Shown here: piece by piece, positions 48,184 through 64,000 of the stretch | Numbering within the stretch: position 1 is the first letter of the stretch | Layout: each line of letters starts with the position of its first letter | NCBI GenBank assembly: GCA_027035575.1 | Contig: JALVUQ010000024.1 | Span: 1 to 64,000, forward strand | Reading direction: 5' to 3' | DNA: 64,000 nt | Source: Desulfurellales bacterium | Lineage (GTDB): Bacteria; Campylobacterota_A; Desulfurellia; Desulfurellales; Hippeaceae | The notes under the pieces: generated by a model | The model's database searches: none | What the model was told of the DNA's origin: nothing | What the model saw: only the letters and a program-made list of their open reading frames with translations | Made by a program: the position numbers and the translations under genes

Positions 48184-48211
48184 AAAAAAGGGGAGCCTAA
48201 AGCCCCCTTTT
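48184..48211 (-). terminator. Rho-independent terminator of the thl-to-EMO operon
   Basis: On the minus strand AAAAGGGG, a GC-containing loop, CCCCTTTTTT: a strong stem followed by T residues, overlapping the stop codon of the EMO-like gene. Confidence 0.75.
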
Positions 48212-50231
48212 AATTTTCAAGCTCTTTTTCAACAATTTGAGCTATATCTTCAACCTGTATGTTATCGTAAGACAAATCCTTGACGCCGTCGTCCAGCATA
48301 ATCATACAAAACGGACAGGCGGTTGCTATAACATCCGGGTCTGTTTGAGCAAGTTCTTTGGTTCTGACCTTGTTTATCCTTTCTCCTTCTTCCTCAACCC
48401 ACATCATACCGCCGCCGGCTCCGCAGCAAAAGCTCTTTTGACGAGAATTTTCTGTTTCCACGAGGTTTGCACCGGCTTTTTTAAGTATGCTTCTCGGGTC
48501 GTCGTATATTCCGCTGTGTCTTCCGAGATAACAGGAATCGTGAAACACAACCTTGTTGTTAAAATCGCTCTTAACATTTAGACGCCCCGAATCGATAAGC
48601 TCTTTTATGAATTGAGTGTGGTGAACAACCTCAAAAAAATCACCGCCGAGTTTAGGATATTCGTTTTTAAGCGTATAATATCCGTGAGGGCAGGTTACAA
48701 CTATCTTTTTTATGTTGTGAGCCTTAAATGTTTCTATGTTTTCCATTGCCAGGTTATAAAACAGATACTCATTTCCGAGCCTCCTGGCACTGTCTCCGCA
48801 GCACTTCTCTTGTTTGCCGAGAATGGCATAATTTACTTTTGCTTTGTTCAATATCTTTGCAAAAGACCTCGCTATTGCTTTTCCTCTGTCGTCGAAGGCT
48901 CCCGCACACCCGACAAAGTATAAAATTTCAGGCTCGGGTTCATCCTCAATTGTTTTAACATCCAAATCTTTTGCCCAATCTGCTCTGTAATCCCTGTTTA
49001 TTCCCCAAGGATTGGCGTTTATCTCCATATTGTTGAAAGCTTCCATAAGTTTTTCAGGAAATCGCCCCTCGGTCATAACGAGGTATCTTTTCATATCTAT
49101 CATATTTCTGATGTGCTCGTTGCTAACAGGGCAGACAGCTTGACAGGCTCCGCAGGTTGTACATTGGAAAAGAGCTTTTTCGGGAATGCTTGCCTGGTAT
49201 TCAACGTAGGTTTTTTCAGGCAGCTCAAGTTCGTAGTCTTTAAACAGAGGAACCCTTTTTTCGTCGCTGTCTTCCTCTTTTCCGAGAACGATGTTGGCAT
49301 TTTCAAGGATATTGTCTTTTGCTGCCAGTATGACCTCTTTGGGAACCAGCAGTTTACCCGTATTTGCAGCAGGGCACAGACTTGAGCACCTTCCGCACTC
49401 CGTACAGGCATATCCGTCAAATACCTGTTTCCAGGTCAGTTCTTCAACCTTTCCTACGCCGTAGGATTCGAGTGACTCATCTTCAAAATCTATCTGTCTC
49501 AAATTTATGGATTCGTCAAGGTTAACAAAATAGTTGTTCGGAATGCCCGCAAGTATATGCAGATGTTTCGAGTGGGGTATGAAATCCAGAAATGCCAACA
49601 GCGAAATTATATGAATCCAGTAAGCAATTTCATATCCGACAAAAGAATATTTAGGATGAAAAATGTTGTATAGAAATTGAGAAAAAATCATCCAGTTGTC
49701 GGGTTTTCCTTCTTTTGCTATCTCCATCATTCCCATATAAAACAGCGTGAGCATAAGAATGGTGATTAATCCCAAAATAAAATAGGCGGATAAATGATAG
49801 TTCTCTTTCTTCGGATGCCATACGAGCCTTCTAAACAAACTCATACCTACTGCAACAAGGACTATAAATGTAAACAGGTCTTCCAAAAACAGATAAATAT
49901 GATATCCGGTGTATCCCAAAAACGAGAAATCAAAACCCGGTATTAAACCCTTTAAAATCAGCTCTATCTCACCGAAAAGAAGAACAATGAAGCCAAAGAA
50001 TAACATAGAGTGGAAAATTCCGGTGTAGTTAATGTCGGGGTCTTTTATCTTAAAGTGACATAACTGCAAAAGTCCCTTGTCTATTGCGGATTTTATACGC
50101 TCGCCAACCCTGTCGTATCTGTTTTCGGGCTGGAGTTTCTTTAAAAGGGAATAGAGATAGAAAACCCTTTGAAAAAATATGGCAAGGCTGACTATTAAAA
50201 CAACAGCCAAAACAACGGATTGAATGTGCAT
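48210..50231 (-). CDS. Membrane-bound Fe-S oxidoreductase, EtfAB:menaquinone oxidoreductase-like (EMO)
   Basis: 673 residues. N-terminal membrane part of about six helices (residues 5-25, 70-95, 112-133, 147-168, 200-220) similar to cytochrome b-type NarI/HdrE subunits; then two 4Fe-4S clusters (Cys 276, 279, 282, 286 and 357, 360, 363, 367) and two CCG domains (Cys-Cys pairs at 477-478 and 602-603), as in HdrD. This fusion matches the EMO family, shown in syntrophic and related bacteria to pass electrons from ETF to menaquinone. Being in an operon with thiolase, Hbd, Crt and acyl-CoA dehydrogenase, beside etfBA, strongly supports that role. Confidence 0.9.
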   Translation of the reverse strand: MHIQSVVLAVVLIVSLAIFFQRVFYLYSLLKKLQPENRYDRVGERIKSAIDKGLLQLCHFKIKDPDINYTGIFHSMLFFGFIVLLFGEIELILKGLIPGFDFSFLGYTGYHIYLFLEDLFTFIVLVAVGMSLFRRLVWHPKKENYHLSAYFILGLITILMLTLFYMGMMEIAKEGKPDNWMIFSQFLYNIFHPKYSFVGYEIAYWIHIISLLAFLDFIPHSKHLHILAGIPNNYFVNLDESINLRQIDFEDESLESYGVGKVEELTWKQVFDGYACTECGRCSSLCPAANTGKLLVPKEVILAAKDNILENANIVLGKEEDSDEKRVPLFKDYELELPEKTYVEYQASIPEKALFQCTTCGACQAVCPVSNEHIRNMIDMKRYLVMTEGRFPEKLMEAFNNMEINANPWGINRDYRADWAKDLDVKTIEDEPEPEILYFVGCAGAFDDRGKAIARSFAKILNKAKVNYAILGKQEKCCGDSARRLGNEYLFYNLAMENIETFKAHNIKKIVVTCPHGYYTLKNEYPKLGGDFFEVVHHTQFIKELIDSGRLNVKSDFNNKVVFHDSCYLGRHSGIYDDPRSILKKAGANLVETENSRQKSFCCGAGGGMMWVEEEGERINKVRTKELAQTDPDVIATACPFCMIMLDDGVKDLSYDNIQVEDIAQIVEKELEN

Positions 50232-54235: not shown

Positions 54236-54351
54236 TTTCTACCTCCGAAAAAAACCGTTTGAAATCAACAAAAAACCCGATTATTTTTCAATATAAATAC
54301 CGCTTTTTAACCAAGATATGACTGCCCATAGATTTACCAAACATAAACAAC

Positions 54352-54379
54352 AAAAAAGGGCGCATAAACGCCCTTTTTT
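54352..54379 (-). terminator. Rho-independent terminator after etfA
   Basis: AAAAAAGGGCG, loop CATAAA, CGCCCTTTTTT: a near-perfect hairpin with T residues on both strands' reading, abutting the etfA stop. It separates etfBA from the thl operon. Confidence 0.85.
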
Positions 54380-55294
54380 CTAAGCACTTTTGAGTTTTTT
54401 TGTCAAAATTGGAACAAACTCGTTAACATCAGCCACAACAAACACATCTGCCACTTCACCTATGGGTGCATCTTTGTCTTTGTTAATTGCAACAACAAAG
54501 CCGGATTTTTTCATACCGGCAAGATGCTGTATGGCTCCTGAAATACCGCAAGCAATGTACAGTTTGGGAGCAACGGTCTGTCCTGTGGTTCCGACCTGGT
54601 GAGACTGGTCTAACCATTCGGCATCCACAACGGGTCTGCTTGCACCGAGCTCTCCGCCCAAGGTTTCAGCCAGCTCTTTCTCAAATTCAATGTTTTCTTT
54701 TTTGCCGACGCCTCTTCCGACGCTCACTATTACCTCCGCTTTTGTCAAATCAACGCCGGTTTTTTCCTGAACTTCATAGTCTATAAACTCAACGGAGGGT
54801 TCGACATCTCCAATATCAAGAGTTTCCACTTGAGGTGTCCCTTCAATAACAGGATTGAAGGCGCCGCCCTGCAGGGTTAAAACAGCCTTATCCGTTTTGG
54901 GTTTAACCTCTCTTCTGAATTTTGAGTTGCAGCAGGGGACGACGAACGTTCCGTCTTTATAGTCAACAACCTCCGATATTGGAGCAACCTTTAAATCTGC
55001 CGCCACTCTGAATGCCATATCCCAGCCGTATGAAGAGTGGCTGAATATGATATAGTCGGGATTCTCTTTATTTATTGCCTCTTCAATCAATTTTTTATGG
55101 GCATCGGGGTTGTACTCTTTGTATTTATCGGAATCCGCAAGATATACTTTACCGTCATAGGCTATTTGAGAGTCGCTTTTTGCCACGATAAACATTGCGC
55201 TTTCCATACCGAACTGCTTTGCAAAACCTACCAACTCATAGGTAGAATCTTCGATTTTTCCCTGTTTGCTTTCACCTATCAATAAAGCTTTCAT
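54380..55294 (-). CDS. etfA: Electron transfer flavoprotein, alpha subunit
   Basis: Larger subunit of ETF, which takes electrons from acyl-CoA dehydrogenases. 304 residues. The C-terminal FAD-binding domain shows [55 protein letters not shown], all diagnostic. It follows etfB by 19 bases. A strong terminator lies at its end. Confidence 0.97.
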
Positions 55295-55313: not shown

Positions 55314-56087
55314 CTATTTAACAACCTGTGTTTTTTCTTTCAGTATCTTAATCAACTCGTCAGCCATCTCGTCAGCTTTACCCTCAAGCACAATTCCTCC
55401 GGCTTTTCTTTCGGGGAAATAGACCTTTTCGGTTTCAATCAACGGCTCTACCTTCAGCAGTTCTTCTATATTTACCGTTTTTAGTTCTTTTCTTTTTGCT
55501 TTCATTATGTTCGGCAGTGTCGGATATCTCGGAGTGTTTAACCCTAACTGGCAGGCAACGACTGCCGGTAGTTTGACTTTTACTTTTGCCCTTAAACCGC
55601 CCTCAAGCTCTCTTGCAACCTCAACATACCCCTCTTTATTCTCAAAGGCAACCACGGTACTTACAAACGAGTAGTTTAACATTCCGGCAAGAAGAGGAGC
55701 AAGTTGAGCTGAGCCTCTGTCTTGAGATTGAAGCCCCGTAAAGATAATGTCGAAGTTTTCGGATTTTGCATATTCGGCAATGGCAGATGCTTTTTGGAAC
55801 GGGTCTTTTAAGTGTTCTTCGTTGTCGAGTATGTGGATACCCTTGTCCGCACCCATTGCCAAGACCTTTCTGATTGCGTCTTTGACCCTCTCAGGACCGA
55901 TTGATAGAACCGTCAGTTCCGAACCCGACACCTTTTCCTTTAGTCTGACCGCTTCTTCTGCCGCATACTCGTCATACTCATTGATTTTATAGACCAAATC
56001 GCTTTGGTCATACCATTTGGAAGAAGAGTCAATCTTAAACTTGGATTCCATATCGGGAACCTGTTTCACACACACCAGAATCTTCAT
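55314..56087 (-). CDS. etfB: Electron transfer flavoprotein, beta subunit
   Basis: AMP-binding partner of EtfA. MKILVCVKQVPDMESKFKID at the start, and VLSIGPERVKDAIRKVLAMGADKGIHI and TGLQSQDRGSAQLAPLLA further on, are family hallmarks. 257 residues. AGGAGG lies before the ATG, and a promoter with an operator-like palindrome lies about 40 bases upstream. Confidence 0.97.
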   Translation of the reverse strand: MKILVCVKQVPDMESKFKIDSSSKWYDQSDLVYKINEYDEYAAEEAVRLKEKVSGSELTVLSIGPERVKDAIRKVLAMGADKGIHILDNEEHLKDPFQKASAIAEYAKSENFDIIFTGLQSQDRGSAQLAPLLAGMLNYSFVSTVVAFENKEGYVEVARELEGGLRAKVKVKLPAVVACQLGLNTPRYPTLPNIMKAKRKELKTVNIEELLKVEPLIETEKVYFPERKAGGIVLEGKADEMADELIKILKEKTQVVK

Positions 56088-56124: not shown

Positions 56125-56152
56125 ATCATAAACTTATTTACGTAAAAGTCAA
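56125..56152 (-). promoter_or_regulatory. Promoter of etfBA with palindromic operator
   Basis: On the minus strand TTGACT (56152-56147), a 16-base spacer, TATGAT (56130-56125). The spacer begins with the perfect palindrome TTTACGTAAA (56146-56137). The divergent fadD promoter has the same palindrome in the same place, also with a 16-base spacer. Confidence 0.75.
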
Positions 56153-56506
56153 GCTATTTTTGTTAACTAATTTCAAAAATGTAAAAAATCCGTTTGTTAT
56201 CTTTTTTGTTGAAGGAACAGAACTTGTCGGTCTGCAAGGGCAATGAAGCTTATTTGCATCTTTGATTTTATATGGCTGAAACAACAAAAGTTCTCTTTTA
56301 TAGGTGCTTTCAATAAGTTCTTGCTTATTTATATATCTTTTAAACTCGGTGCTACCGTTTTTTTGAGTTTGTTTAAAAAAATTTTCTTTAAGACTTGAAT
56401 AATAGTCCGTTATAACCTAATATTATATTGAAAAGAGAAACATAGTTAACAGGTTTGTATGTGGAGTAATGTTAAATGGTGGTTATAAAAACAGGTTGAA
56501 AAATGC
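56153..56506. other. Intergenic stretch between etfB and fadD promoters
   Basis: About 350 bases of AT-rich DNA between the two divergent promoters, within the 476-base gap between genes. I see no gene, RNA or terminator. A 51-codon open frame (56243-56398) is present but unconvincing. Confidence 0.4.
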
Positions 56507-56534
56507 TTGACATTTACGTAAAATGGTATATGCT
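56507..56534 (+). promoter_or_regulatory. Promoter of the long-chain fatty-acid operon with palindromic operator
   Basis: Consensus TTGACA (56507-56512), 16-base spacer, TATGCT (56529-56534), then AAGGGGG and the GTG start at 56564. The spacer begins with TTTACGTAAA (56513-56522), identical in sequence and position to the etfBA promoter. Confidence 0.78.
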
Positions 56535-56563: not shown

Positions 56564-58426
56564 GTGGCGGATAAAACAAGTTATCCTTTTAGGTCTATTC
56601 CCGAACTATTGATGAAGAACGCTTCGGTCTTCAAAAACGAAACTGCCGTGCTGTATAAGAAGGACGGGAAGTACATATCGATAACCTACGAAGAGCTTTA
56701 CCATAGGGGGCTGCAGGTTTCAAGAGGCTTGAAAAAGATGGGAATCAAAAAGGGCGATAAGGTTGCCATCTTGTCAGAAACCCGCCCTATGTGGATGTTA
56801 GCCGATTTTGGTATTCTCAATTTGGGATGTATAGAGGTTCCGATTTACCATACCGATTCTCCGGAGCAGATAGCCTATATATTGAACCATTCGGAGGCAA
56901 AGGTTGTTTTTGTGTCAACCAAAGCTCAGTATCAGAAGCTGCTTGATGTTGTCGATAAAATAAATATTGAATTTGTAGTATCGCACGACAGATTTTTGGG
57001 TGACCCTAAACTGCCGGTTTTGACACTGTTTCAACTTTCCGAGATTTCGGAAGATATATCCGAAGCCGAAAAAAAAGAGATTGAGGAGTCCATAAAAAGC
57101 ATAGAGCCTGATGAAATATACACGATTTTATACACCTCAGGAACAACCGGAAAACCAAAAGGCGTTTTGTTAACACATAAAAATATCATTTCAAATCTCT
57201 ACTACACGGAGAGAAAAACAGGAAAAATACTTACAAAAGACGACATATTTTTGACGTTTTTGCCGTTTTCCCACGTTTTGGGCAAGACCGACAGCTGCTA
57301 TCTTCCTATGTATGTAGGAGCCAAAATTGCTTTTGCGGAAAGCATAGAGACGATAGCTGACAATATGAAAGAGGTCAGACCTACAATAATGGTTACCGTG
57401 CCGAGATTGCTCGAAAAAATCTATGCGAGAATTATGGATGTTACGCACAATATGAGCGATACCAAAAAAGCACTTGTGCACTGGGCGATAGATGTCGGTA
57501 AAAATTACGTAGTTAAAAAATATGTAGAAAAGAAAGAACCGTCGGTTCTGAGATACTCAATTGCCGATAAGATTGTGTTTCAAAAGTTAAGAGGAAGTAT
57601 GGGGCTTGACAGGCTTAAATTTTTTGTTTCCGGAGGAGCGCCTCTTGATAAGGATTTGAATATATTCTATTGGGCTTGCGGACTCAAGGTTCTTGAGGGC
57701 TACGGCTTAACTGAAACATCACCCGTGTTGTGCGTTAATGAGCCCGATAACTTTAAATTCGGTTCCGTCGGCACGCTTCTTGAAGAAACAGAGGTTAAAA
57801 TTGCAGAAGACGGAGAATTGATATTCAGAGGTCCTCAGGTTGCAAAGGGGTATTATAAAATGCCCGAGGCAACAAAGGAGTCGTTTACCGAAGACGGTTG
57901 GTTTAAAACAGGCGATATAGGGCACATTGACGAGGACGGTTTCGTTTATATAACCGACAGAAAAAAAGAGATAATAATAACGGCGGGTGGAAAAAACGTT
58001 GCTCCTCAAGCCATAGAAAATGCCCTTAAATTCTCGAAATACATATCGAACGCCTGTTTGTATGGTGATAAAAAACCCTACATCGTTGCTCTTGTAACGC
58101 TTAATATCGAAAGAATTATAGACTATGCCAAAGAGCATAAGCTGAGATATCTCGATGTCTCCGATTTGGCAAAGAACGAAAAAATCATAAAGTTGATAAA
58201 AAACGAGATAGAGAAGGTCAATAAGAATCTTGCAAAAGTTGAAACCATTAAAAAATTTGCGATATTGCCGCAGGATTTCTCTATAGAGACAGGCGAATTG
58301 ACATCTACCTTGAAGCTAAAAAGAAGGGTAGTTTATCAAAAATACAAAGATATTATAGAGTGCCTCTATACAGACGAGGGAACCTGCTTTACCTGTGCCG
58401 AGGCTTCTTCCTCATCAAAATCCTAA
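56564..58426 (+). CDS. fadD: Long-chain acyl-CoA synthetase (fatty-acid CoA ligase)
   Basis: AMP-forming enzyme that activates fatty acids with ATP and CoA. 620 residues. YTSGTTGKPKGV (AMP-binding P-loop), YGLTETSPVL, GDIGHIDEDGFVYITDRKKE and the C-terminal lysine region are visible. Length and the VSGGAPLD and LPFSHV segments fit the long-chain (FAA1/FadD15-like) group. The C-terminal tail is odd: after the last domain comes CLYTDEGTCFTCAEASSSSKS, with three cysteines. GTG start after AAGGGGG. First gene of the plus-strand operon. Confidence 0.93.
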   Translation: MADKTSYPFRSIPELLMKNASVFKNETAVLYKKDGKYISITYEELYHRGLQVSRGLKKMGIKKGDKVAILSETRPMWMLADFGILNLGCIEVPIYHTDSPEQIAYILNHSEAKVVFVSTKAQYQKLLDVVDKINIEFVVSHDRFLGDPKLPVLTLFQLSEISEDISEAEKKEIEESIKSIEPDEIYTILYTSGTTGKPKGVLLTHKNIISNLYYTERKTGKILTKDDIFLTFLPFSHVLGKTDSCYLPMYVGAKIAFAESIETIADNMKEVRPTIMVTVPRLLEKIYARIMDVTHNMSDTKKALVHWAIDVGKNYVVKKYVEKKEPSVLRYSIADKIVFQKLRGSMGLDRLKFFVSGGAPLDKDLNIFYWACGLKVLEGYGLTETSPVLCVNEPDNFKFGSVGTLLEETEVKIAEDGELIFRGPQVAKGYYKMPEATKESFTEDGWFKTGDIGHIDEDGFVYITDRKKEIIITAGGKNVAPQAIENALKFSKYISNACLYGDKKPYIVALVTLNIERIIDYAKEHKLRYLDVSDLAKNEKIIKLIKNEIEKVNKNLAKVETIKKFAILPQDFSIETGELTSTLKLKRRVVYQKYKDIIECLYTDEGTCFTCAEASSSSKS

Positions 58427-58434
58427 GGAGATGA

Positions 58435-59685
58435 ATGATGATTTCCGATGTGCTTTTGGGCGAAACTCAAAAAGAGGTCAGGGCACGCACAATTGAGTTT
58501 GTGAAGAGTATTCCGACATCTCTGCTTTTGGATATGGATGAGGAAAAGGTAATATACCCCAAAGAGTTTTTAAAAAAGGCAGCCGAATACGGACTGTTGG
58601 GTTTAAGGTTTCCTAAGGAGTATGAAGGAAAAGGTCTTGGATGGACATCTGAGGTTGTTGCGATAGAGGAGATAGGCATTTTGGGCACAGCCCTAGCTTG
58701 TCTTTACTCCCTTGTTTCGATTGTAGGAGAGGCAATTAACACATTCGGAACAAAGCAGCAAAAAGAGAAGTTTCTAAAACCCACCATACAAGCAAAAATC
58801 GCTACGGCTGAGGGCTTGACAGAGCCAAGAGGTGGTTCGGACTTTTTTGCAGCTACAACAACGGCTGAAAGAAAAGGTGATTACTTCATTTTAAGAGGAC
58901 AGAAAAGATTTATTGTAGGCGGTGAAGGAGCGGACTACTTCCTTGTGTATGCCAAAACAGACAAAAATGCAAAACCCCATAAATCTATGACTGCTTTTCT
59001 GGTTGAAAGGGATGAGAATGTTAAAGTCAAGCATATATACGGGCTTATGGGAACAAGGGGCGGTGGTACTGCAAGGATATCGTTTGACAGTGTCAAGGTT
59101 CCGATTGAAAACGTGCTTGGCGGTGAAGATGGTATAAACAGAGGGGCTGACGTTTTTTATCAAATGATGATACCTGAGCGTATGACCTCGGCAGCCGGAG
59201 CTTTGGGTATGGCACAGGCGGCATTGGATATTGCAGCGGACTATTCTACAAAAAGAAAATCGTTTTCAAGACCGATAAAAAGCTATCAGGGTGTTTCTTT
59301 TAAGGTAGCCGATAGTTTAATTGAGCTCGATGCCGCAAGGGCGTTGGTATATGAAACGGCACAAGCCATAGATAGAAATGAGGAAGCGGGAAAAATCAGA
59401 AGACTTGTTTCGGAAAGTAAAGCCTATGCTACCGATATGGCTTGGAGGGTTGTCAACAGCTCTATGCAAATAATGGGCGGAATAGGCTATACGAATATAT
59501 ATCCCATAGAAAGACTTTTAAGGGATACGAGATTAATTATGATATGGACAGGTACAAATGAAATTATGAAGCTGATTATACAGCACGAATTCTATAAGGA
59601 GGTGAGCGAAAGAGGGATTGAAAGAAGAGATTTGGAGAAAGACGCAATAAATAGCGATTTGGAAGAAGAAAAGATTTACGAGTAG
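58435..59685 (+). CDS. fadE: Acyl-CoA dehydrogenase with Glu in the isovaleryl/long-chain position
   Basis: FAD-dependent first oxidation step. 416 residues. [22 protein letters not shown] and [19 protein letters not shown] mark the family. The usual catalytic Glu before GTNE is replaced by Thr (IWTGTNE), but [13 protein letters not shown] supplies a Glu at the position used by isovaleryl-CoA and long-chain dehydrogenases. Hence probably active with long or branched substrates. ATG 58435 or 58438; AAGGAG is upstream. Nine bases after fadD. Confidence 0.88.
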
Positions 59686-59693
59686 GAGGAAGT

Positions 59694-62090
59694 ATGAAGG
59701 ATATTAGAAAGGTTGCTGTTTTAGGAGCAGGCGTTATGGGTTCGACCATAGCCGCACATATGGCTAACGCCGGTCTCGATGTGCTTCTGCTTGACATTGT
59801 CCCGAACAAGCTAACCGAAGAGGAAGAAAAGAAAGGGCTGACTCTGGAGGATAAGGCGGTAAGAAACAGAATTGTAATAAACGCCTTAAACAACTTAAAG
59901 AAGATGAAACCCGCAGCTTTGTATGTGAAAGACTACATTAAAAACATCGAAATCGGCAACTTTGAAGACGATATGCACAAAATAAAAGATTGCGATTGGG
60001 TCATTGAGGTTGTTGTCGAAAATTTGGATATTAAGAAATCTCTGCTTAAAGAGAAGGTCGTTCCGAATATAGGGCAGGATACGATACTCACATCAAACAC
60101 AAGCGGTCTGTCGATAAACGCTATGGCAGAAAGCGTTCCCGAGGATTTAAGAAAGAGATTCCTTATCACGCACTTTTTTAATCCGCCGAGATATATGAGG
60201 TTGATGGAGATTGTTCCGTCAAAATATACAGACCCCGAAATTGTCAAATTTATGGCTGACTTTATCTCATTTAGGCTTGGAAAGGGCATCGTATATGCCA
60301 AAGATACACCTAACTTCATAGGTAACAGAATCGGCGTTTATTTGATGTTTGCAGCCATAAAACATATGAAAGAGCTTGGGTTGAATGTTGAAGAGGTTGA
60401 TGCGGTTGCCGGACCTGTTATGGGATTTCCAAAAACGGCTGTTTTTAAATTGGCTGACCTTGTCGGCATAGACACACTTGTTCATGTCGGCAAAAATACA
60501 TACGAATTGATAGATTCGTCTGTTGATGATGAAAAGGATATATACAAGGTTCCAGAATTTCTCGACAATATGATTAAAAACAAATTGTTGGGCAATAAAA
60601 CAAAGAGGGGATTTTATTACAAAGAAAAGAAAGACGGAAAAAGAATTACCTACTACTACGATATAGAGACCGGTGAATACAAAGAGTCAAAGAAACCCAA
60701 ATTTGCATCCGTTCAAGCTGCATCTCAAGGCAAATCCCTTGCTGAAAAAATAAATATTTTGATAAACGGCAAGGATAAGGCTGCCGAGTTTGCCTGGAGA
60801 CTTTTAAGGGATGCGCTTTTGTATTCGTTTAAAAGAATTCCCGAAATTGCAGACGATGTTGTCAATATAGACAACGCTATGAAGTGGGGATACAACTGGA
60901 AGATGGGTCCTTTTGAGCTTTTTGATGCAATTGGCGTAAAAAGATTTGTAAAAAGGCTTGAAAAAGAGGGAACGGAAATACCGGAGAAACTGAAGAATAT
61001 TGAGAAGTTTTATAAGTTTGAAAACGGCAAGGAGTTTTATTTTGACATCTTAAAGGGTGAATTCAAAGAGATAGAAAAGCCGAAAAGCTATATAAAATTG
61101 GATATTCTCAAAAAGACAGGCTCACTTGTTGAAGAAAACAGCTCTGCTTCCATTATTGATTTGGGTGATGGTGTTTTCAATCTTGAATTCCACACAAAGA
61201 TGAACGCCATAGGCGCAGGTATAATATCTATGGCAAAGAAAGCCGTTCAAAGAGCGGAAAACGAGGGTGTGGCACTTGTTATATCAAACCAGGGAAAAAT
61301 TTTCTCAGCGGGAGCGAATCTTGCTTTAATAGCTACATCCATAGCCGAAGGTGCATTTGACGATATCTATATGGCTGTTAAGCAGTTTCAAAATATGACA
61401 ATGGGCTTTAAGTATGCAAAGGTTCCCGTTGTTTCGGCTCCGTTTAATATCACTGTAGGTGGGGGCTGCGAAACCTGTCTGCATTCCGATGCCATTGTAG
61501 CCCACGCAGAAACCTATATGGGTCTTGTAGAGGTTGGAGTCGGCTTAATTCCGGCAGGCGGAGGAACAAAAGAGATGGCGCTGAGGGCTATCCGGACGGT
61601 TCAGAACTTCAAAGCCCCGGATGTTACTCCCTTTATTGGAAAATATTTTGAAAATATAGCTATGGCTAAGGTTTCTATGTCGGCAAGAGAGGCTTTTGGG
61701 TTGGGGTATATGGACGATAGCGACTCCGTGACTATGGACATAGACAATCTCGTTTATGATGCAAAACAGGTTGCTCTGGCTTTGGCAAGAAACTACAGAC
61801 CGTCAAAACCGGTTACCGATGTTCCGGCACCCGGGCGTGATGTTTTTGCTACTATTAAAAACCTTTTATGGACGATGTATCAAGGAAAATTCATAAGCGA
61901 ATACGATATGAAGGTTGCCGAGAAGGTAGCATATGTTATGACAGGCGGAGATGTTTTACCGGCTACGATGATTTCGGAAGAGTATCTGCTTGAGTTGGAA
62001 AGAGAGGCATTCTTGCAGCTTTGCGGAGAAAAGAAAACAATTGAAAGAATACAACATATGCTAAAAACCGGAAAACCTTTAAGGAATTAG
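59694..62090 (+). CDS. fadN: FadN-type fused 3-hydroxyacyl-CoA dehydrogenase / enoyl-CoA hydratase
   Basis: Bifunctional beta-oxidation enzyme of 798 residues, domain order dehydrogenase then hydratase, as in Bacillus FadN and opposite to E. coli FadB. The N-terminal NAD fold has VLGAGVMGSTIA; SNTSGLSINAM and HFFNPPRYMRLMEIV follow; two C-terminal hydroxyacyl dehydrogenase segments (KRGFYYKEK, and NAMKWGYNWKMGPFELFD); then the crotonase domain with FSAGANLA, GGGCETCLHSD and LVEVGVGLIPAGGGT, both catalytic Glu present. GGAGG precedes the ATG; fadA follows after nine bases. Confidence 0.95.
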   Translation: MKDIRKVAVLGAGVMGSTIAAHMANAGLDVLLLDIVPNKLTEEEEKKGLTLEDKAVRNRIVINALNNLKKMKPAALYVKDYIKNIEIGNFEDDMHKIKDCDWVIEVVVENLDIKKSLLKEKVVPNIGQDTILTSNTSGLSINAMAESVPEDLRKRFLITHFFNPPRYMRLMEIVPSKYTDPEIVKFMADFISFRLGKGIVYAKDTPNFIGNRIGVYLMFAAIKHMKELGLNVEEVDAVAGPVMGFPKTAVFKLADLVGIDTLVHVGKNTYELIDSSVDDEKDIYKVPEFLDNMIKNKLLGNKTKRGFYYKEKKDGKRITYYYDIETGEYKESKKPKFASVQAASQGKSLAEKINILINGKDKAAEFAWRLLRDALLYSFKRIPEIADDVVNIDNAMKWGYNWKMGPFELFDAIGVKRFVKRLEKEGTEIPEKLKNIEKFYKFENGKEFYFDILKGEFKEIEKPKSYIKLDILKKTGSLVEENSSASIIDLGDGVFNLEFHTKMNAIGAGIISMAKKAVQRAENEGVALVISNQGKIFSAGANLALIATSIAEGAFDDIYMAVKQFQNMTMGFKYAKVPVVSAPFNITVGGGCETCLHSDAIVAHAETYMGLVEVGVGLIPAGGGTKEMALRAIRTVQNFKAPDVTPFIGKYFENIAMAKVSMSAREAFGLGYMDDSDSVTMDIDNLVYDAKQVALALARNYRPSKPVTDVPAPGRDVFATIKNLLWTMYQGKFISEYDMKVAEKVAYVMTGGDVLPATMISEEYLLELEREAFLQLCGEKKTIERIQHMLKTGKPLRN

Positions 62091-62099
62091 GAGGAGAAT

Positions 62100-63317
62100 A
62101 TGAGAAATCTTAGAAGTGCATATATAGTTGCCGCATACAGAACACCCGGATGCAGAACGGGGCGTGCGGCGAGACTGGGCAAGGGACAGTTTAAGGATTT
62201 CAGACCTGATGATTTGGCTGCCATAGCCATTAAAAGTGTTGTTGAAAAAACAGAAGTTGACCCAATGAGCATAGACGACGTTATCTTGGGCTGTGCTTTC
62301 CCTGAGGGTGAGCAGGGAATGAACGTTGCAAGAATAGCATCTCACAAAGCCGGACTGCCTTATCAGGTGCCGGGTATGACAATAAACAGATTTTGCTCAT
62401 CCGGTCTTCAGAGCATCACCATCGCAGCAGAAAAAATAATGGCGGGATTTGCAGATTGCGTTATAGCCGGCGGTACGGAATCTATGACTATGGTTCCTAT
62501 GGGAGGAATTAAATACTCGGCTAATCCTTATTTAATAGAAAACTGGCCTGAAACGTACACGCCTATGGGATTAACTGCCGAGTTTGTTGCTCAAAAACAC
62601 AATATCACAAGAGAGGCTCAGGATGAGTTTTCTTACTACTCACATATGAAAGCTGCAAAAGCCATCCAAGAGGGGAAGTTTAAAGACGAAATCATACCTG
62701 TTGAGGTTGAAAAAACGGTTGTTGAGGGAAACAAGGTTAAAAAGGTTAAGAAGATTGTTGATATTGACGACGGAGTGAGACCGGATACAACGATAGAGGG
62801 ACTTGCAAAATTGAAGCCTGTTTTTAAAGCCGACGGCACAATAACGGCTGGTAACTCGTCTCAAATGACGGATGCTGCTGCCGCTGTGATGGTTGTTTCA
62901 GAGGATTATCTCAAAAAGATGGGCAAAGACCCGATAGCAAGATTTGTTGTGTATGCCGTTGCCGGTGTTGAGCCGCATATGATGGGAGAGGGTCCTATTG
63001 CAGCCGTTCCGAAAGCTATGGAGTTGGCTAAAAAATTAGAAGGAATAAATATGGACGACATAGGCTTAATTGAGCTCAACGAAGCGTTTGCAGCTCAGTC
63101 GTTGGCTTGTATCAACGCATTGGGATGGAACGATATTAAAGACATAATTAATGTTAACGGCGGAGCTATAGCTTTGGGTCACCCGCTTGGAGCTACAGGC
63201 GCCAAGTTAACGGCAACGCTTTTAAATGAAATGAAAAGAAGAAATGTTAAATACGGACTTGAAACTATGTGTATCGGCGGCGGAATGGGCGCAGCCGGAA
63301 TATATGAATTAATGTAA
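62100..63317 (+). CDS. fadA: Acetyl-CoA acyltransferase (3-ketoacyl-CoA thiolase)
   Basis: Last step of beta-oxidation: releases acetyl-CoA and shortens the acyl chain. 405 residues. Active-site Cys in [20 protein letters not shown] with the catalytic His, and second Cys in CIGGGMG. GGAGG just before the ATG. Its place after fadN and before another acyl-CoA dehydrogenase gives an order like the Bacillus fadNAE operon. Confidence 0.95.
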
Positions 63318-63334: not shown

Positions 63335-64000
63335 ATGAGCGAATTGTTAAAAGGCGGAGAATTTCTAATAAGAGAGGTTTCAAAGGATGAGGTTTTTACA
63401 CCTGAGGATTTGTCTTCCGAACAAAAGCAGATGATGGAGACAACCGAACAGTTCATAAAAAACGAGGTTATGCCGGATGTTGATGCTATGGATAACAGCA
63501 ACCACAACTTCGATTTGTTAGTGAGCCATATGAAACAGGCTGGCGAGTTGGGACTGTTTTCCATTTATGCACCCGAGGAGTATGACGGACTTGATTTGGG
63601 ATTGACAACGGGGGCTTGTGTTGTTGAAAAAATCGCACCTGCCGGTTCTTTTTCGGTTGCTTATGCGGCACACGTCGGAATAGGTTCGCTTCCTCTGATA
63701 TATTACGGAACAAAAGAACAAAAGGAAAAATATTTACCCAAGCTTGTTAGCGGTGAATGGATAGCTGCATATTGTTTAACCGAGCCGGATGCCGGAACAG
63801 ATGCTCTTGGAATGAGAGCTGTTGCCAAGCTGTCTGATGACGGTAAATACTATATCCTAAACGGTACGAAACAGTTTATTACAAACGGAAGTATAGCCGA
63901 TTTATACACGGTATTTGCCAAAACACCGGAAGGTGAGTATGTGGCATTCCTTGTTGAGCGTAATTTTGAAGGCGTAAGCGTAGGAAGAGAAGAAGACAAG
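63335..64000 (+). CDS. Acyl-CoA dehydrogenase, cut off by the window end
   Basis: ATG 63335 lies seven bases after GGAGGAG; 222 codons are visible and the frame is still open at the last base. The N-terminal part (LLKGGEFLIREV) precedes the usual acyl-CoA dehydrogenase helices, then SLPLIYYGTKEQKEKYLP, the FAD loop LTEPDAGTDALGM and LNGTKQFITNG. The catalytic Glu lies outside the window. The N-terminal KGGEFLI opening resembles the longer FadE of Bacillus (about 590 residues), so the full gene may be large. Confidence 0.93.
   Translation, partial: MSELLKGGEFLIREVSKDEVFTPEDLSSEQKQMMETTEQFIKNEVMPDVDAMDNSNHNFDLLVSHMKQAGELGLFSIYAPEEYDGLDLGLTTGACVVEKIAPAGSFSVAYAAHVGIGSLPLIYYGTKEQKEKYLPKLVSGEWIAAYCLTEPDAGTDALGMRAVAKLSDDGKYYILNGTKQFITNGSIADLYTVFAKTPEGEYVAFLVERNFEGVSVGREEDK

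Follow-up and report, generated by a model that had tools for sequence, protein, structure and literature searches.

Paired operator sites in the divergent etfBA and fadD promoters of a Desulfurellales bacterium and a probable MerR-family repressor

The window (the whole stretch of 64,000 nucleotides that was analysed) contains a pair of divergent transcription units, headed by etfB and fadD and separated by a gap of 476 bp. The genes and the feature that closes the minus-strand unit are as follows:

54352..54379, minus strand: terminator-like hairpin with a T-run, directly after etfA (from a consensus scan only)
54380..55294, minus strand: etfA, electron transfer flavoprotein alpha subunit
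55314..56087, minus strand: etfB, electron transfer flavoprotein beta subunit; its ortholog has the operator site in all 12 genomes that carry the merR gene described below
56564..58426, plus strand: long-chain acyl-CoA synthetase of fadD type, which heads the plus-strand unit
58435..59685, plus strand: acyl-CoA dehydrogenase
59694..62090, plus strand: 3-hydroxyacyl-CoA dehydrogenase / enoyl-CoA hydratase fusion (FadB-like)
62100..63317, plus strand: acetyl-CoA C-acyltransferase (thiolase)
63335..64000, plus strand: second acyl-CoA dehydrogenase, running past the end of the window

From fadD to the second acyl-CoA dehydrogenase the intergenic gaps of the plus-strand unit measure 8–17 bp. The fusion protein has its dehydrogenase part first, which is the reverse of the order in E. 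coli FadB. On the minus strand a strong terminator-like hairpin sits between etfA and a thiolase gene (within 54236–54379), and the operator-led unit probably consists of etfBA only, ending at this hairpin. Beyond it, on the same strand, lie genes for the thiolase, a hydroxybutyryl-CoA dehydrogenase, a crotonase, an acyl-CoA dehydrogenase and an Fe-S oxidoreductase; no third operator was found in the etfA–thiolase gap, and none of these genes has a recognisable site in front. Given the probable terminator, these downstream beta-oxidation genes are not clearly under the control of the etfBA site: the genes from thiolase to Fe-S protein seem to form a separate unit lacking this operator. The last of this minus-strand beta-oxidation cluster (48210–50231, minus strand) encodes a membrane Fe-S protein of 673 aa that has a pair of CCG domains of heterodisulfide-reductase type and is a candidate ETF:quinone oxidoreductase.

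The gap between etfB and fadD holds two promoters of ordinary sigma-70 type, each consisting of TTGAC(T/A) followed directly by TTTACGTAAA:

56125..56130, minus strand: -10 box TATGAT of the etfBA promoter, 16 bp from TTGACT (56152–56147)
56137..56152, minus strand: putative operator 1 (etfBA), TTGACTTTTACGTAAA on the minus strand, comprising the 10-bp palindrome (56137–56146) and the -35 box (56147–56152)
56507..56522, plus strand: putative operator 2 (fadD), TTGACATTTACGTAAA, comprising the -35 box (56507–56512) and the 10-bp palindrome (56513–56522)
56529..56534, plus strand: -10 box TATGCT of the fadD promoter, 16 bp from TTGACA (56507–56512)

The preliminary description of this DNA had reported the same 10-base palindrome immediately behind both -35 boxes, with 16-base spacers and no third copy in the window. 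Both observations hold: the palindromes lie at 56137–56146 and 56513–56522, and they are the only exact occurrences of TTTACGTAAA in the window. The 476-bp gap gave no Rfam match, and the idea that it contains a riboswitch or another kind of RNA element was rejected on that ground.

Across the 1.72-Mb genome there are four exact copies of TTTACGTAAA, two of them in the window; the remaining two are located inside the gene of a GGDEF protein and inside a molybdopterin-oxidoreductase-like gene (both names assigned by inspecting translations). A control pattern also gave four matches, a number not unusual for a 10-mer, and the count in this genome alone therefore proves nothing. Apart from the two window sites no further strong operator was found in the genome at 0–1 mismatches, and the hits with 2–3 mismatches (80 + 78, against 61 + 62 for the control) are near control level.

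The significance of the motif derives instead from comparison among relatives. The extended pattern TTGACNTTTACGTAAA was searched for in 19 genomes of the order, with the reversed pattern as control. It gave 25 listed matches in 12 of the 19 genomes (24 distinct ones, since two are the two ends of a single contig break in G017), while the control gave none. Every match lies at most a few tens of bases before the start codon of the gene behind it, which is etfB or fadD or, in two genomes, a gene for an aldehyde dehydrogenase. With up to one mismatch allowed, a site is present before the main etfB and before fadD in each of the 12 genomes; the ten positions past the -35 box are conserved almost base by base. 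The congener G018 is instructive: in its etfB–fadD gap both promoter/operator blocks are conserved and the ∼300 bp between them are not. The named relatives reached through FadD are too distant for intergenic comparison. Matches in G011 (contig C29), in G015 (contig C97, within rpoB) and in G028 were discounted, all being within coding regions. A second etfB copy in G001 (L148, G001:C1:1277511-1278278), 66% identical, has no operator in front.

Zero control matches and a conserved gene context lead us to reject a chance origin of the motif. Random scatter through the genome, or lack of conservation in relatives, had been named in the preliminary description as findings that would speak against an operator. 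In its promoter context the motif is not randomly scattered, and it recurs in 12 of 19 genomes, with both blocks retained in G018. The same data bear on the view that TTGACNTTTACGTAAA is a promoter feature only – a strong -35 box with an extended spacer preference, typical of highly expressed genes and serving no dedicated regulator. TTGAC does belong to the motif, and the 10-mer is no commoner than the control pattern in this genome; however, the genome has no other match at 0 or 1 mismatch, the positions beyond the -35 box are nearly invariant, and no exact match to TTGACNTTTACGTAAA was found in the seven genomes of the order that do not have a merR ortholog. We give this view hardly any weight.

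Comparison also bears on the extent of the site. In an Alcanivorax genome a LiuR-like MerR gene adjoins an acyl-CoA dehydrogenase gene and TTTACGTTAACGTAAA stands just upstream of merR; in a betaproteobacterium the same two kinds of gene are neighbours, with TTTACGTAAACGTCAA between them. Read on the minus strand, operator 2 is TTTACGTAAATGTCAA, one base off the betaproteobacterial sequence, a near-identity that supports a 16-bp register, TTnACGTnnnnGTnAA. Judged against the sites beside these two LiuR-like genes, both window sites fit this pattern; at the eleventh position they have A/T in place of the C of the two LiuR-like sites. At the fadD site of G018 (TTAACGTAAATGTCAA) the 10-bp palindrome is broken and the 16-bp pattern intact. 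The operator is thus better read as a 16-bp element, TTTACGTAAAnGTCAA, that overlaps the -35 box, a reading well supported by these comparisons: TTGAC would be both -35 box and operator half-site, and the 10-bp palindrome one end of the operator. This falls short of proof, because TTGAC would be retained anyway as a promoter element. The palindrome is thus where it was first described, while its status as a separate element behind the -35 box gives way, on the comparative data, to a larger operator that includes that box.

The genome encodes a candidate regulator outside the window:

C27:12298-12711, own genome: merR, single-domain MerR-family regulator of 138 aa that contains no cysteine

The product has an N-terminal MerR winged helix-turn-helix domain (PF13411, 78.4 bits against a cut-off of 21.6), and its PDB matches are to MerR-family regulators. 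Orthologs (E <= 7e-45) occur in exactly the 12 site-bearing genomes of the 19; in the remaining seven nothing closer than an HspR-like paralog turned up. Orthologs of etfB have this same distribution, and so the co-occurrence of merR and site is not independent of the pathway. Adjacency to the operator is the stronger argument: in eight relatives (G001, G002, G003 and G009–G013) merR and etfBA are transcribed divergently from either side of the site. In the present genome merR lies away from the operators, on another contig. In five of the relatives (L116-L123, G009–G013) the merR–etfB gap contains two ACGTAA sites 84–86 bp apart, about eight helical turns, and looping between them is conceivable.

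A different regulator might bind these sites, for example the single TetR-family protein of the genome (C8:42564-42695, L087), in which case the adjacency of merR would be coincidental. Proteobacteria use TetR-family proteins (FadP, PsrA) to control the breakdown of fatty acids (PMC5343134), one TetR-family gene is at hand in this genome, and a 10-bp palindrome alone would fit many helix-turn-helix dimers. Against this, the MerR gene accompanies the operator in 12 of 12 genomes and adjoins it in eight, and LiuR-like MerR genes elsewhere have a near-identical site alongside; we consider binding by another regulator very unlikely. The expectation that the regulator is encoded elsewhere, with TetR, MerR and FadR types as candidates, is therefore borne out as to location (another contig) and narrows to the MerR family, the sequence comparisons favouring neither TetR nor FadR.

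The genes around merR are consistent with such a regulon. In this genome (contig C27, L113/L005), in its genus and in G001 and G002, merR is followed by a gene for a chalcone-isomerase-like secreted protein and a 4HBT thioesterase. In G006 an aldehyde dehydrogenase gene precedes merR and a thioesterase and a crotonase follow; aldehyde dehydrogenases resembling this one have the operator in G011 and G012, and a similar crotonase carries TTTACGTAAATGT(A/T)AA in G001 and G003 (likeness judged by eye from translations). Neighbours of merR in one genome thus carry the operator in another. A nitronate-monooxygenase-family gene in G001, with TTTACGTAAACGTTAA just before it (L230, G001:C1:1594540-1594555), is a possible extra member of the regulon.

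A weaker operator-like copy stands just before the merR start codon in 12 of 12 genomes; in the present genome it is TTATCGTAAAGGTGAA (C27:12707-12722). This copy overlaps the ribosome-binding region, and part of its conservation may therefore be translational.

Together the above analyses make it probable that both sites are operators of a LiuR-like MerR repressor that blocks RNA polymerase and is released by an acyl-CoA or fatty acid of the pathway. Comparison of genomes establishes the sites, their targets, their conservation and the co-occurrence and adjacency of merR; binding by MerR, repression rather than activation, autoregulation and the ligand we infer. A MerR dimer would bind the 16-bp pseudo-palindrome TTTACGTAAnnGTnAA, which occupies the -35 box together with the adjoining upstream stretch of spacer, and so shut RNA polymerase out of the etfBA and fadD promoters. 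When fatty acids are present an intermediate of the pathway, most likely an acyl-CoA (a ligand suggested by the target genes), would release the repressor; activation by FadD, beta-oxidation and the electron carrier ETF would then come on together. By way of the weaker copy just before its start codon, the repressor may also limit its own synthesis. A shared repressor operator coordinating ETF with fatty-acid activation and oxidation had been the central proposal of the preliminary description, and the conservation and non-random placement of the motif lend it support.

The MerR protein could instead be a classical activator: permanently bound in the spacer, it would distort the DNA on binding ligand and so switch the promoters on. 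Its family membership and the position of the operator between or over the promoter elements would suit such a role. MerR activators, however, work at promoters with spacers of 19–20 bp (PMC9909328; PMC5045206). Spacers of 16–17 bp fit every promoter of the relatives (established in part by inspection; at five of the sites before fadD the automatic choice settled on 15 or 19 bp), and the operator here lies over the -35 box and not at the centre of the spacer. We regard activation as unlikely: short spacers combined with an operator on the -35 box make simple exclusion of RNA polymerase, that is repression, the likely mode. A metal-sensing MerR activator in particular was rejected, as the protein has no cysteine and both window promoters have 16-bp spacers.

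In the tree the 12 merR orthologs form one clade (100/99), whose joining to a LiuR-like pair is not well supported (forks of 97/74 and 88/67, in a small sample with long branches). Behind the sites stand etfBA and the fadD operon, joined in relatives by genes for an aldehyde dehydrogenase and a crotonase, and not the branched-chain operons liu, ivd or bkd. With an operator of LiuR type, targets other than branched-chain ones and a poorly supported joining to the LiuR-like pair, the regulator is named LiuR-like and not LiuR. More speculatively, it may represent a separate MerR subfamily, not orthologous to LiuR: in Desulfurellales it would be the master repressor of fatty-acid oxidation under anaerobic conditions, sensing straight-chain acyl-CoA by means other than a dedicated ligand domain and regulating itself from a site in the mRNA leader overlapping the ribosome-binding region. 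We hold this to be possible rather than probable.

Desulfurellales are anaerobes, often thermophilic; one of them is Hippea, a sulfur reducer from the same family as the present bacterium and from another genus. A search of open-access papers turned up no fatty-acid regulon published for the order. What is described here is a conventional metabolic on/off circuit, apparently not described before in this lineage. For the oxidation of fatty acids in Desulfurellales it supplies a complete candidate set, from regulator through operator to targets, and it would carry a DNA code of LiuR type over to ETF and straight-chain beta-oxidation.

Among known systems LiuR is the closest parallel. In Proteobacteria it governs the degradation of branched-chain amino acids and acyl-CoAs. 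It is a MerR-family protein described as a repressor (PMC3223726), and in Rhodospirillum rubrum a link between a LiuR regulon and butyrate assimilation has been reported as well (PMC7238569). The present system shares with it a small MerR-family protein (here devoid of metal-binding cysteines), the operator TTnACGTnnnnGTnAA and acyl-CoA-oxidising targets; it differs in the genes controlled, which are fadD, a beta-oxidation operon and etfBA in place of liu/ivd operons. FadR (GntR family) and PsrA and FadP (TetR family), the repressors of fatty-acid degradation in Proteobacteria (PMC5343134), have the same physiological role, repressing fad and etf-type genes and presumably relieved by acyl-CoA or fatty acid, but belong to other protein families, and there is no sign of them at these sites. 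CueR, CadR, ZntR and MerR have the same DNA-binding fold and supply the best NCBIfam and PDB matches of the protein, although its NCBIfam scores for classical activators are all far below the cut-offs; a search of plasmids with the MerR protein returned mostly cadmium/lead regulators. Unlike these, the present protein has no cysteine ligands and is thus not a metal sensor of CueR/CadR type (three of the 12 ortholog listings, L116 and L119 among them, show a single cysteine, only upstream of the probable start codon), its promoters have spacers of 16–17 rather than 19–20 bp, and its targets are catabolic.
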